NCBI RefSeq assembly: GCF_003967195.1 | Contig: NZ_AP018725.1 | Location: 2,600,001-2,664,000 of the forward strand | Origin: Sulfuriflexus mobilis | GTDB lineage: Bacteria > Pseudomonadota > Gammaproteobacteria > AKS1 | Length of the DNA: 64,000 nt | Direction: 5' to 3' | In this document: positions 52,661 to 58,303 of the stretch, piece after piece | How the letters are laid out: each line of letters starts with the position of its first letter | Position numbering within the stretch: the stretch's first letter is position 1 | Notes under the pieces: generated by a model | What the model was told of the DNA's origin: nothing | The model's database searches: none | The model's input: the letters and a program-made list of their open reading frames with translations, nothing else | Program-made: the position numbers and the translations under genes

Positions 52661-53914
52661 TTAACGCTTTTTAACGGCCTTCTTTTTTGCCTTCTTTTTT
52701 GCCGTTTTTTTGGCGACTTTTTTCGCCACCTTTTTCTTCGTTACCGCTTTTTTTGTCACTTTTTTCTTTGTTGCCACCTTCTTTTTTGTCGTGGTGGCAT
52801 CACTGACTTTCTTTTTCAGGCCCTTGACGGCCTTGTTCACCTTCTTGCCAATTTCCCTGGCCTCTTTCTTTGCAGCCTTGCTGACCTTTTTACCAATGGC
52901 CTTGGCCTCCTTCTTGATTACCTTCGACTCTTTCTTCGCTGCCTTGGTGACCTTCTTGCCGATGGCCTTGGCTTCTTTCTTGATCACCTTGACCTCTTTC
53001 TTCGCTGCCCTGGTGACCTTCTTGCCGATAGCCTTGGCTTGTTTCTTTATCTCCTTGACCTCCTTTTTCGCGGCCTTGCTGACCTTGTTACTAACCTCTT
53101 TCACTTCCTTGGTGACAACTTTCTCGGCCTTTTGCAAGGCCTCGTCGGCCGGCTCGATCAGGTCCTTGTTGGCGGTGGCCAGCGCCTGCTGTACGGATTC
53201 AAGTACCTTGCGCTCCAGATCATCAAAGGTTGTCGAAATAATGTCCTTGAGCAAGGCCTCTTCACTTGGCAAGGTCTTGAGTTCCTTTTGCAAGGCGGTA
53301 AAGATGTCCTCGATCTCTCCCACACCCTGGATGGTGCGCAACTTATCCTGTTCCCGATAGTAATCGAGCAGTGGCATCGTCTGGGTTTCATAGATACGCA
53401 GACGGTTGCCAATGGTTTCCTCGTTATCATCGGCACGCTGCCGTAGCTCACCACCGCAAACATCACAGTGGTCATACAACCTTGAGGGCGAGGTGTATAG
53501 ATTGTACATCTGACCGCATGCGCTACAGGTCTGACGGCCGCCAAGGCGTTGAATCAGCGCATCGACGTCCACATCAATGAGCAGGGCGCCCTGGACCGGC
53601 AGTCGCAACTGGACGAGTATCTTGTCCAGTTCCTCGGCCTGCGGCAGGGTGCGGGGGAAGCCGTCGAGGATAAAACCCTTGGCCACATCCTCTTCCTCGA
53701 GGCGTTCGCGGATCACGCCGAGCACGATCTCATCAGGGACGAGCTGACCACTGTCCATCAGCGGTTTGGCCTGACGACCCAGCGCCGTACCCTTGTCGAC
53801 GGCATCACGCAGCAGGTCACCCGTAGAAATCTGTACGACCCCAAATTTTTTGACGAGTAACTTGGCCTGCGTGCCTTTCCCTGATCCTGGCGCGCCTAGT
53901 AAAATGATCCTCAT
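52661..53914 (-). CDS. adk: Adenylate kinase with long lysine-rich histone-H1-like C-terminal tail
   Basis: 417 residues from ATG at 53914 (AGGTGG ribosome binding site); a GTG three codons earlier is the other option. Residues 1-215 form a complete adenylate kinase: P-loop LLGAPGSGKGTQ, GFILDGFPRT, and a zinc-type LID with CSAC and CDVC. Normal Adk ends near here. A ~55-residue helical linker follows, then about 150 residues extremely rich in Lys, Ala and Val, with a 22-residue repeat (three copies of AKAIGKKV-x-x-AAKKE-type units, encoded at about 52841-53038), and a final stretch of KKKVAKK-type blocks. The tail resembles bacterial histone-H1-like or AlgP tails and predicts nucleic-acid or polyanion binding. 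The fusion is within one uninterrupted frame. Confidence 0.93.
   Translation of the reverse strand: MRIILLGAPGSGKGTQAKLLVKKFGVVQISTGDLLRDAVDKGTALGRQAKPLMDSGQLVPDEIVLGVIRERLEEEDVAKGFILDGFPRTLPQAEELDKILVQLRLPVQGALLIDVDVDALIQRLGGRQTCSACGQMYNLYTSPSRLYDHCDVCGGELRQRADDNEETIGNRLRIYETQTMPLLDYYREQDKLRTIQGVGEIEDIFTALQKELKTLPSEEALLKDIISTTFDDLERKVLESVQQALATANKDLIEPADEALQKAEKVVTKEVKEVSNKVSKAAKKEVKEIKKQAKAIGKKVTRAAKKEVKVIKKEAKAIGKKVTKAAKKESKVIKKEAKAIGKKVSKAAKKEAREIGKKVNKAVKGLKKKVSDATTTKKKVATKKKVTKKAVTKKKVAKKVAKKTAKKKAKKKAVKKR
52841..53038 (-). repeat. Three tandem 66-bp coding repeats in the adk tail
   Basis: Encodes three 22-residue units starting AKAIGKKV; the units are similar but not identical at the DNA level, so the repeat is old or under selection at the protein level. 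Confidence 0.75.
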
Positions 53915-54158
53915 GCTGCCCACCTGACTTTTTAAGTCTTTATTTATATTGTAGTTTTTATCCCCACCACGCCCTCGGCGCGATTACGCCCAAGCATTTC
54001 CGGGGGAGAAAATGCCGCTTTTTTATCTAACCTACTCTGCCGATGGCCGCCAAGTCAATGAACGGTTATGCATTTTCTGCGCTTTTGCAGTATCCTTTAC
54101 CGCCCGCGGATGGCCCGCGTGGCAATACCAGCAACCAAAATCATCGCAAGACGGCAAA

Positions 54159-54516
54159 ATGAGCAAAAAAATCCCCGATTTCACCGATAGCCAGATATGG
54201 ACCGTCGAGAGTACCCTCGCAGCGCGCTTCAAGAAGAAGATCGAGACCCAAATCATCGACAGTGAAAACCGTCTGCACCCGCATGACCGTGAACTGCCCC
54301 CGGTGACAGGCCTGTACTGTGAGGCCAATGACGGCCATTTCGTGATTTTTCAAACCGACCGAAGTAATACCGCTGCCAGTTTTCTACCGCATTCACCAGC
54401 AATACGGCACCGGTATCGAAGAATACGATGCAATCGAAGACTGTATTATCTCGCTGTTGCGCGTACAGGCCGACCATACGCGCGATACCCGGCAGGAAGA
54501 TGACGCCGCCAACTAA
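54159..54516 (+). pseudogene. Small conserved-looking gene broken by a +1 frameshift
   Basis: From ATG at 54159 (MSKKIPDFTDSQIWTVES) the frame is protein-like up to GHFVIF, then enters a T5 run at 54346-54350. Reading one base later after the run continues sensibly (KPTEVIPLPVFYRIHQQYG, then EEYDAIEDCIISLLRVQADH) to a TAA at 54516. With T4 instead of T5 the product would be about 118 residues. No family is recognised. It is either a sequencing error, a recent mutation or programmed slippage. It lies 48 bp upstream of the PPi-PFK gene. Confidence 0.7.
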
Positions 54517-54564
54517 CTCTATTTATATAAACCTAGCTAACTGACCATCTCAGGAGACTACATC

Positions 54565-55908
54565 ATGGCAACAAAGAAAACTGCCAAAAAGAAAACAGCT
54601 GTAAAAAAGACAGCCGTTAAGAAAACCGCCGCGAAGAAGAAAACGGCTGAGAAACCAAAGAATGCGTTTTACGCACAGTCCGGTGGTGTCACCGCCGTGA
54701 TCAATGCCTCTGCCTGTGGCGTGATCGAGACTGCCCGTGCCAACAAGGCCAAGATCGGCAAGGTCTACGCTGGTCGTAACGGCATTATTGGTGCCCTCAC
54801 CGAAGACCTGATCGATACCAGCAAGGAATCCGCTGCGTCTATCAAGGCACTGCGTCATACCCCTTCCGGTGCCTTCGGTTCCTGCCGCTTCAAACTGAAG
54901 AGCCTCGAGGCCAACCGACGCGAATACGAACGTCTGATCGAAGTCTTTAAGGCCCACAACATTGGCTACTTCTTCTACAACGGTGGTGGTGACTCTGCGG
55001 ATACCTGTTACAAAATTTCACAACTGTCTGAAAAGATGGGTTACCCGATTCAGGCCATTCACGTGCCAAAGACCGTTGATAATGACCTGCCGATTACTGA
55101 CAACTGCCCGGGCTTCGGTTCGGTGGCCAAGTACATCGCCGTCTCAACCCGCGAAGCCAGCTTCGATGTCGCCTCAATGGCCAAGACCTCGACCAAGGTC
55201 TTCATTGTTGAAGTTATGGGCCGTCACGCCGGCTGGATCGCCGCCGCCGGTGGTCTTGCCTCGACTGACGATACGCCGATCCCAATCATTATCCTCTTCC
55301 CTGAAGTTGAATTTAACCAGAAGAAGTTCCTCGCCAGGGTCGATGCCATGGTCAAGAAGCACGGTTACTGCACCGTAGTGGTATCAGAGGGTGTGCACTA
55401 CCCGGATGGCAAATTCCTGGCCGAGACCGGCCTCAAGGACTCCTTCGGTCATGCCCAGCTCGGTGGTGCCGCAACCGTCATTTCCGGCATGGTTCAGAAT
55501 GAACTGGGTCTGAAGAATCACTGGGCCGTCGCCGATTACCTGCAGCGTGCCGCACGCCACATCGCCTCCAAGACCGATGTCGACATGGCCTATGCCATGG
55601 GTAAGGCCGCTGTGCAGTTTGCCCTCAAGGGTCACAACTCCATCATGCCTACAGTTGATCGCATCTCGAACAAGCCGTTCAAGTGGAAGGTTGGCATGGC
55701 CCCGCTGAGCAAGGTGGCCAATGTTGAGAAGATGATGCCGAAGAACTTCATCACCACCGATGGCTATGGCATTACCAAGAAGTGCCGTGAGTACCTTGAG
55801 CCACTCATCAAGGGTGAAGACTATCCGCCCTACAAGAACGGCATGCCACAGTACGTACGTATGAAAAACGTTGGTATTAAACAGAAACTGCCAAAGTTCG
55901 AGCTTTAA
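54565..55908 (+). CDS. pfp: Pyrophosphate-dependent 6-phosphofructokinase with lysine-rich N-terminal tail
   Basis: 447 residues. Residues 1-32 are a basic extension made of KKTA/VKKTA units (TKKTAKKKTAVKKTAVKKTA). The kinase follows: YAQSGGVTAVINA, the nucleotide/PPi loop FFYNGGGDSADT, catalytic PKTVDNDLPITDNCPGFGS and VEVMGRHAGW. The motif GGDSADT, rather than the ATP-type GGDGS, together with PKTVDND indicates PPi use. It interconverts fructose-6-P and fructose-1,6-bisP reversibly. hppA follows, giving a PPi-linked pair. The start ATG has CAGGAGAC upstream. The basic tail echoes the one on the neighbouring Adk. Confidence 0.92.
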   Translation: MATKKTAKKKTAVKKTAVKKTAAKKKTAEKPKNAFYAQSGGVTAVINASACGVIETARANKAKIGKVYAGRNGIIGALTEDLIDTSKESAASIKALRHTPSGAFGSCRFKLKSLEANRREYERLIEVFKAHNIGYFFYNGGGDSADTCYKISQLSEKMGYPIQAIHVPKTVDNDLPITDNCPGFGSVAKYIAVSTREASFDVASMAKTSTKVFIVEVMGRHAGWIAAAGGLASTDDTPIPIIILFPEVEFNQKKFLARVDAMVKKHGYCTVVVSEGVHYPDGKFLAETGLKDSFGHAQLGGAATVISGMVQNELGLKNHWAVADYLQRAARHIASKTDVDMAYAMGKAAVQFALKGHNSIMPTVDRISNKPFKWKVGMAPLSKVANVEKMMPKNFITTDGYGITKKCREYLEPLIKGEDYPPYKNGMPQYVRMKNVGIKQKLPKFEL

Positions 55909-55959: not shown

Positions 55960-56232
55960 ATGACTATCGACAAAGCCCGGGAACTCATCCTCACCGAGGC
56001 CCAGAATGTACATGGCCAGGCCGCCGTAGATGGCCTGATCCGCGAATTCGACCTTGAGACCATCTTTGGGCAGGTCTTTCTCACGCCCTGTCTAACCCAG
56101 TTTGTAAGCCGTACTACCGTACTGCGCCTTTTACCCCTCCACATCTGTCCCGACTTGCCCTGTCGCCTGAAAGGCAGTAATAATGGGCGCACAAAAATAG
56201 CTACATCGTCCGACCCTGATAATTACAAATAA
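55960..56232 (+). CDS. Small ORF of uncertain status between pfp and hppA
   Basis: 90 codons. The first ~36 residues (MTIDKARELILTEAQNVHGQ, then AAVDGLIREFDLETIFG) look like a genuine helical protein, but the rest is cysteine- and basic-rich and looks out of frame. There is no good ribosome binding site. It may be a truncated or frameshifted small gene. Confidence 0.35.
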   Translation: MTIDKARELILTEAQNVHGQAAVDGLIREFDLETIFGQVFLTPCLTQFVSRTTVLRLLPLHICPDLPCRLKGSNNGRTKIATSSDPDNYK

Positions 56233-56251: not shown

Positions 56252-58303
56252 ATGTCTACTGGTCTGCTAATCGCGATCGCCTGTTCGTTTATCGCCCTTG
56301 TTTACGGTGCCTGGTCCTATACATGGATCCTCTCAAAACCCTCCGGTAACGACCGCATGCAAGAGATCGCTGCGGCCATACAGGAAGGCGCCCAGGCCTA
56401 CCTGAACCGCCAGTACACGACCATCAGTCTGGTCGGGGCTGTGCTGTTCGTGGCCATCTTCCTCTCCCTCGGTGTCCTCACCGCCATCGGTTTTGCCATC
56501 GGTGCCCTGTGTTCGGCCGGGGCCGGATATATCGGCATGAACATCTCGGTGCGTGCCAATGTGCGTACCGCCGAGGCCGCCAATGATGGCCTCAATGCTG
56601 CCCTGCAGGTCGCCTTCCGTGGCGGTGCCATCACCGGCATGCTTGTGGTCGGCCTCGGCCTGCTCGGTGTCGCCGGTTATTACGCCGTCCTCACCGCCAT
56701 GACACCGACCGGGGGGGCTGTCAGCCTCACACCGCTGGTCGGCCTGGCCTTCGGTGGCTCACTCATCTCTATCTTCGCTCGTCTTGGCGGCGGTATCTTC
56801 ACCAAGGGTGCCGATGTCGGTGCCGACCTGGTCGGCAAGGTTGAGGTCGGGATCCCAGAAGACGACCCACGCAATCCGGCTGTGATCGCCGACAACGTCG
56901 GTGATAACGTCGGTGACTGTGCCGGCATGGCCGCCGACCTGTTCGAAACCTATGCCGTCACCCTCATCGCCACCATGCTGCTCGGCGGCCTGCTGCTGAG
57001 TAACGCCGGTGATGCCGCCGTGCTCTACCCGCTCGTCCTCGGCGCCGCCTCCATTATCGCCTCGGTGATCGGCACCTTCTTCGTCAAGGCCAGAGAGGGT
57101 GGCAAGATCATGAATGCCCTCTATCGTGGCCTCGCCGTTGCCGGCGGCATTTCCGCTATCGCCTTCTACCCCATCACAACCTGGATACTCGGTGACAGTG
57201 TGACGATTGATGGCAGCAGCGTGGCCTCGATAAACCTGTTCTACAGTGCCCTCATCGGCCTCGTCCTCACTGCCGCCATGGTCGTGATCACCGAGTACTA
57301 CACCGCAACTGAATATGCGCCGGTCAGACACATCGCCGAGGCCTCGACCACCGGTCACGGCACCAATGTCATTGCCGGTCTCGGTGTCTCCATGAAGTCT
57401 ACTGCCCTGCCGGTGCTCGCCGTCTGTGCCAGCATCTGGGGAGCTTATGAACTTGCCGGCCTGTATGGCATCGCCATCGCCGCGACCTCGATGCTGTCCA
57501 TGACCGGTATCGTCGTCGCCCTCGATGCCTACGGCCCTATCACCGACAACGCCGGTGGCATCGCCGAGATGGCCGAGCTGGATGACAAGATCCGCAGCAT
57601 CACCGACCCGCTCGATGCCGTTGGCAACACCACCAAGGCCGTAACCAAGGGTTATGCGATCGCCTCGGCGGGTCTCGCCGCACTGGTGCTGTTCGCCGAC
57701 TACACACACGAACTGGCTGCCCACACGAGTCAGACTATTACCTTCGGTCTTTCCGATCACATGGTCATCATCGGCCTGTTCATTGGTGGCCTCGTACCCT
57801 ACCTGTTCGGTGCCATGGCCATGGAGGCCGTCGGTCGCGCTGCCGGTAGCGTCGTCGTCGAAGTCCGCCGCCAGTTCAAGGAGATCCCTGGCATTATGGA
57901 ACGCACGGCCAAGCCGGACTACTCACGCGCCGTCGACATGCTGACCCGCTCCGCGATCAAGGAAATGATGTTGCCATCGCTGTTACCGATACTGGTACCG
58001 ATACTCGTCGGCCTCATCCTTGGCCCCAAGGCACTCGGTGGCCTGCTGATCGGTACCATCATCACCGGCCTGTTCGTCGCCATCTCCATGACCACCGGTG
58101 GTGGTGCCTGGGATAACGCCAAGAAGTATATTGAAGACGGCAACTGTGGCGGCAAGGGCTCTGAGGCCCACAAGGCTGCGGTGACCGGTGACACCGTCGG
58201 CGACCCTTACAAGGATACTGCTGGTCCGGCAATCAACCCGCTGATCAAGATTATTAATATTGTCGCGTTGTTGATTATTCCGCTGCTGCCGATGGCGGGA
58301 TAG
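56252..58303 (+). CDS. hppA: K+-independent H+-translocating inorganic pyrophosphatase
   Basis: 683 residues with about 15-16 membrane helices. Catalytic motifs are [35 protein letters not shown], and the C-terminal [14 protein letters not shown]. The position that sets potassium dependence reads [10 protein letters not shown] (lysine in place of alanine), which marks the K+-independent, proton-pumping subgroup. It couples PPi hydrolysis to proton export, or makes PPi in reverse. GGTGGAGG-type ribosome binding site. Downstream of PPi-PFK, so PPi made or used by glycolysis/gluconeogenesis can be exchanged for proton gradient. Confidence 0.96.

Follow-up and report, generated by a model that had tools for sequence, protein, structure and literature searches.

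A lysine-rich, predicted disordered N-terminal tail on a PPi-dependent phosphofructokinase looks like one case of a lineage-wide habit of basic tails

The window, by which we mean the whole 64,000-nucleotide stretch of DNA analysed here (G000:C1:2600001-2664000), belongs to a complete genome of 3.11 Mb and carries a gene for a PPi-dependent phosphofructokinase (PPi-PFK) at 54565-55908 on the forward strand, encoding 447 aa from an ATG start. Residues 1-32 of its translation, MATKKTAKKKTAVKKTAVKKTAAKKKTAEKPK (54565..54660), form a lysine-rich N-terminal tail, and the family core (residues 33-447, 54661..55905), which opens with NAFYAQSGGVTAV, follows directly. Divergent to pfk, on the reverse strand, lies adk (52661-53923, 420 aa), in which an adenylate kinase (ADK) core with a Cys4-type lid (53273..53923; Pfam ADK 1.1e-52, ADK_lid 5.4e-11, NF001380 above its cut-off) is followed by a lysine-rich C-terminal tail of about 200 aa (52664..53272) that also has tailed counterparts in relatives. 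Downstream of pfk on the forward strand, hppA (56252..58303; NF001951, E = 0) encodes a membrane pyrophosphatase whose translation carries no comparable lysine-rich tail. The earlier note was right that PFK and ADK are adjacent and bear their tails at opposite ends. A small forward-strand frame between adk and pfk (54154-54515, MSKKIPDFTDSQIWTVEST...) seems to be carried on in a different frame (...VFYRIHQQYGTGIEEYDAIEDCIISLL...), which suggests a frameshift, and was not seen at the same place in the two congeners examined. Between pfk and hppA lies another small forward-strand ORF (55960-56232), for which no relative was found among the other PFK loci compared.

Apart from its tail, the window PFK is an ordinary member of its family. 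The family model NF010675 matches residues 31-444 (3.4e-197, 655 bits against a curated cut-off of 273), and the match to PDB 3hno (7e-222) begins at residue 31; both 3hno and 3k2q align from residues 31-32 and lack the tail, placing the onset of the core at about residues 31-33. The core is 79-92% identical to aligned homologs, and GGGDS and PKTVDNDL are invariant across the 12 aligned PFK homologs, so that GG-x-D-S and PKTxDND motifs, which we take to be the PPi-site motifs of the PPi-dependent PFK family, are present. Assignment as a PPi-dependent enzyme is therefore supported by the family model and these motifs. The protein is of the Methylococcus/Nitrosospira type represented by NF010675, 3hno and 3k2q, with which its core aligns end to end, and it shares with that type the pairing with hppA seen in many chemoautotrophs (PMC4949241, PMC4287430); it differs from 3hno, 3k2q and most homologs in its 32-residue tail. 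That tail comprises 14 Lys, 7 Ala and 6 Thr, and at the lysine frequency of the PFK core at least 14 Lys in 32 residues would arise by chance with a probability of 2.8e-7. The observation that started this work, a lysine-rich stretch of 32 residues ahead of a normal PPi-PFK core, is thus confirmed.

A misplaced start codon was considered and rejected. A Shine-Dalgarno-like CAGGAG (54551..54556, forward strand) precedes the ATG, comparable purine-rich sites stand ahead of the tail ATG in relatives, and the next in-frame ATG, GTG or TTG codons are GTG at residues 45 and 53; because both fall within the conserved core, no alternative start keeps the core whole without the tail. The ribosome-binding site and start codon together place the tail in the PFK reading frame; the start reads as unambiguous, and by every sequence criterion available the tail is real. 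It is also predicted to be disordered: in an AlphaFold2 model built on a shallow alignment of 12 sequences, with a whole-model mean pLDDT of only 75.5, residues 1-27 have pLDDT below 50 and no secondary structure (about 33 for residues 1-20), and the first strand begins at residue 32. A Pfam search of the window PFK returned the PFK domain alone, with no curated H1-like family match on the tail.

Among 110 related PPi-PFKs (30 from whole-genome relatives and 80 from named genome contigs), 20 carry an N-terminal, lysine-rich tail of 13-59 aa, and the usual leader before NAFY is 3-9 residues long, for example MAKKNAFY. The claim that such a tail is absent from typical PPi-PFKs therefore stands for most homologs, but the tail is not unique to the window protein. 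In a tree of PFK cores, 17 of the 20 tailed proteins form one supported group, those of G072 and G073 fall in another, and one from a Thiobacillus MAG (L111) is placed among Betaproteobacteria, amounting to four changes by parsimony. The data do not reject a single origin for the 19 tailed PFKs of Gammaproteobacteria (p-AU 0.449), and one event may underlie them all. Within the window genus, where cores are 90-92% identical to the window PFK, tails are 17, 32 and 43 aa long; length varies fast while composition is retained.

Similar tails occur well beyond PFK and ADK. Searching the window genome by the single DNA pattern KK[ATPS][AV]KK read in frame (several matches fall in very short frames), we found C-terminal tails of the same style on ribosomal protein S2, RNase R and ADK, an N-terminal tail on DksA with a match to the HC2 histone-H1-like family (PF07382, E 1.3e-7) below the cut-off, an H1-like protein of 133 aa that stands alone, such a tail near the N-terminus of a globin-PAS sensor, and the PFK tail itself. 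In relatives, tails of this kind also sit on HU, ParC, L17, OadA, S2 and DksA, and at the C-terminus of an RND transporter; those on HU, topoisomerase IV subunit A, the oxaloacetate decarboxylase-type carboxylase and L17 can be seen at L238 (G038), L248/L250 (G072) and L274/L255 (G064). The idea that the tails are particular to enzymes of phosphate-energy metabolism does not survive this comparison. Outside pfk and adk, the median number of pattern matches is 8 in genomes with both tails, 4.5 in those with the PFK tail only and 1 in the rest. The excess in PFK-tailed genomes (Mann-Whitney 6e-7) is uncorrected for kinship, and ancestry may be its cause, as only two supported phylogenetically independent pairs are available. 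Genomes with an untailed PFK can have many matches (14 in G071, 12 in G094, 10 in G095); therefore, a high number does not force a PFK tail. Overall, the PFK tail looks like one case of a lineage-wide habit of basic tails rather than a mark of a special phosphate compartment.

The closest known counterparts are the tails of AlgP, PhaF and other H1-like proteins with KPAA or KKTA repeats, HC2 (PF07382) included, with which the PFK tail shares a disordered, Lys/Ala-rich, low-complexity character. Known members bind DNA, as KPAA-repeat tails do (PMC9239181), and the PFK tail may do likewise; it differs in being short, N-terminal and placed on a glycolytic/Calvin-cycle enzyme, and in having Thr and Val instead of Pro. 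The lysine-rich C-terminal basic domain of RNase R, present on the RNase R of the window genome as well, is a tail of the same kind; in E. coli its S1 plus basic region binds polyphosphate and the basic domain has been linked to ribosome binding (PMC12345225), but PFK has no RNA-binding domain beside its tail. More broadly, lysine-rich low-complexity regions are enriched among DNA/RNA-binding proteins (PMC6821194). Our literature search found no paper tying lysine-rich tails to PPi-PFK or ADK.

On this basis, the reading we favour, and hold to be somewhat likelier right than wrong, is that a genuinely encoded, disordered, H1/AlgP-like extension on an otherwise ordinary PPi-PFK would give the enzyme a weak, sequence-independent affinity for polyanions such as DNA, rRNA or ribosomes, with anionic membrane as a further candidate; a fraction of the PFK pool may then loosely join the nucleoid or a ribosome-rich phase. 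The tail would then belong to a tendency of this gammaproteobacterial lineage that also embraces S2, DksA, RNase R, the H1-like protein and ADK, with no dedicated phosphate-energy assembly. Against this stand the modest size of the tail, whose 32 residues and net charge of about +13 could bind too weakly to matter, the shared ancestry that may underlie the genome-wide excess, and its codon usage. Lysine codons are split evenly in the tail (AAA 7, AAG 7) and skewed in the core (AAA 6/38, AAG 32/38); all four Thr and all four Ala codons are in use in the tail, as against 36 GCC among 46 Ala codons in the core. Tail codons are accordingly more AT-ending and less biased than those of the strongly biased core, to whose level the tail has not come, a difference that may stem from 5'-end effects or from recent acquisition. 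In ADK, tail and core do not differ in this way. Since synonymous codons are mixed while composition is kept, the PFK tail is not the product of recent DNA slippage or a fresh tandem duplication.

Relaxed codon choice bears equally on a serious rival, namely that the tail is nearly neutral, a low-complexity N-terminal extension tolerated in a lineage prone to Lys/Ala repeats and serving no selected function. Tail length, which spans 13-59 aa in a single clade and 17-43 aa in a single genus, the minimal leader of most close homologs, and the presence of similar tails on functionally unrelated proteins all agree with it. However, every one of the 17 members of the supported clade retains a strongly lysine-biased tail no shorter than 13 aa, whereas drift alone would be expected to have worn some of these tails away, and the Lys/Ala/Thr composition has been maintained despite mixed codons. 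We consider near-neutrality unlikely on balance, yet worth a substantial minority of the weight.

The earlier note had gone further and suggested a spatially organised phosphate-energy module that includes HppA. In the form weighed here, the tails would co-localise ADK and PPi-PFK, together functionally with HppA, on a shared scaffold, be it nucleoid or membrane. Lysine-rich ADK C-terminal tails of about 70-320 aa were found in 39 of 102 scored genomes, with ADK tail status in many Betaproteobacteria taken from the adjacent adk only. Across related genomes the two kinds of tail do co-occur, so the case of independent tails that the earlier note named as its refutation is not what is seen: a tailed ADK accompanies 17 of 19 tailed PFKs with a scorable ADK, against 22 of 83 untailed ones. 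Tailed ADKs resemble the tailed PFK in being small phosphotransferases extended at one end by lysine-rich sequence, and their genes often lie beside pfk, but the ADK extension is C-terminal, longer and far commoner across Gammaproteobacteria, with 12 changes on the tree. In several genomes the tailed ADK is a second or third adk paralog. Exceptions are of both kinds: in G069 a PFK with a 26-aa tail adjoins an ordinary untailed ADK, G063, a genome accessed by way of a MAG contig, yielded an untailed ADK only, and the 22 genomes above have an ADK tail without a PFK tail. Phylogenetic tests of co-occurrence rest on few independent events (p-AU 0.449, as above, for a single PFK-tail clade). Because one or a few origins could account for the association and ADK tails are so much wider spread, the co-occurrence, though real, is weak evidence of function; a common basic, disordered character of both tails is plausible, while the functional inference drawn from it is not established.

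Several features of the ADK genes are recorded here in their own right. The window genome has three adenylate kinases, the pfk-adjacent copy (52661-53923, reverse strand) and copies at G000:C1:2497212-2497817 and G000:C1:1129116-1129751; the tail is on the first only, and a Cys-type lid is found in the first and second, not the third. Two or three adk copies occur in several relatives too. ADK tails of the window genus contain a roughly 22-residue unit, KKEVKVIKKEAKAIGKKVTKAA for example, repeated imperfectly; unlike the PFK tail, these repeats have the look of an amphipathic helix. In G065 (L198 / L136), the ADK tail frame closes with acidic repeats, EEKGQEESSQEKGG, which may come from a frameshifted basic repeat or from a genuine change of tail type. 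A comparable EESSQE stretch occurs in L240 (G038).

Gene linkage and DNA comparison also tell against a dedicated module. The pfk-hppA pairing, found at 58 of 71 loci with usable flanks, is already on record for many chemoautotrophs (PMC4949241, PMC4287430). In the window genus adk and pfk also remain neighbours, as the proposal would have it. However, seven genomes (G056, G058-G062 and G065) carry both tails although the two genes are unlinked: the 11-20 kb surrounding the tailed adk, or the sequence up to the contig end where that came first, contains no pfk, and the 4 kb upstream of pfk contain no adk, so that more than 4 kb separates the genes. At eight tailed-PFK loci hppA is missing downstream, although 2.9 kb or more of sequence is available there; tails are therefore independent of the gene cluster. 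Matched PFK and ADK tails resemble each other no more closely than mismatched pairs do (p 0.16-0.22), and in 16 of 17 genomes their longest shared DNA runs are no longer than synonymous shuffling would predict, the window genome being marginal (a run of 15 against a shuffle maximum of 14); gene conversion or a common DNA origin of the two tails was accordingly rejected. With HppA itself untailed and so many unrelated proteins tailed, we regard the module as improbable.

It is still harder to credit that the A-rich 5' coding region serves mainly translation initiation, through low mRNA structure and AAA codons, with the peptide as a by-product: the AT-ending tail codons of a strongly codon-biased gene fit this, but tails reach 59 codons in relatives, far past the initiation region, and the same peptide style recurs at the C-termini of ADK, S2 and RNase R.

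As for polyphosphate, in E. coli it is bound by the lysine-rich parts of RNase R and YihI (PMC12345225). AlgP, whose tail is H1-like, is found on polyphosphate granules and shows global nucleoid association when polyphosphate kinases are absent (PMC9239181). Searches of the complete window genome, positive in control genomes, returned neither PPK1 (PF02503, PF13090) nor PPK2 (PF03976, sought in this genome only). PF13090 was absent from all four genomes of the window genus and from 12 of 21 genomes tested, several of them draft MAGs; PPK1 was present in the other nine, and tail presence does not follow it. Given these absences in the genome and genus, polyphosphate is an improbable target, the proposal that it serves as the common scaffold in this organism is disfavoured, and we give only the slightest credence to tails that bind it or bear lysine polyphosphate modification. 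By analogy with AlgP, nucleoid association would be the expected default here.

Returning to weak polyanion association as the preferred reading, a bolder extension can be put forward, which we think doubtful: in one clade, H1-like tails might tether ribosome and nucleoid factors together with PPi-PFK, ADK and OadA to the nucleoid or a shared condensate, organising carbon and PPi metabolism spatially around nucleic acid.

Two tailed neighbours hint at a special compartment, but comparison points instead to lineage-wide basic tails that have reached metabolic enzymes, and the PFK tail is a real extension of a familiar low-complexity kind, borne by a known enzyme whose lineage tails many proteins. 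Because known polyphosphate kinases are absent, the window genome offers a setting in which DNA/RNA binding by H1-like tails can be told apart from their polyphosphate binding. If such tails do tether enzymes to the nucleoid or to ribosomes, the clade, in which close relatives exist with and without a tail on the same enzyme, would be a natural experiment on how tails organise bacterial metabolism.
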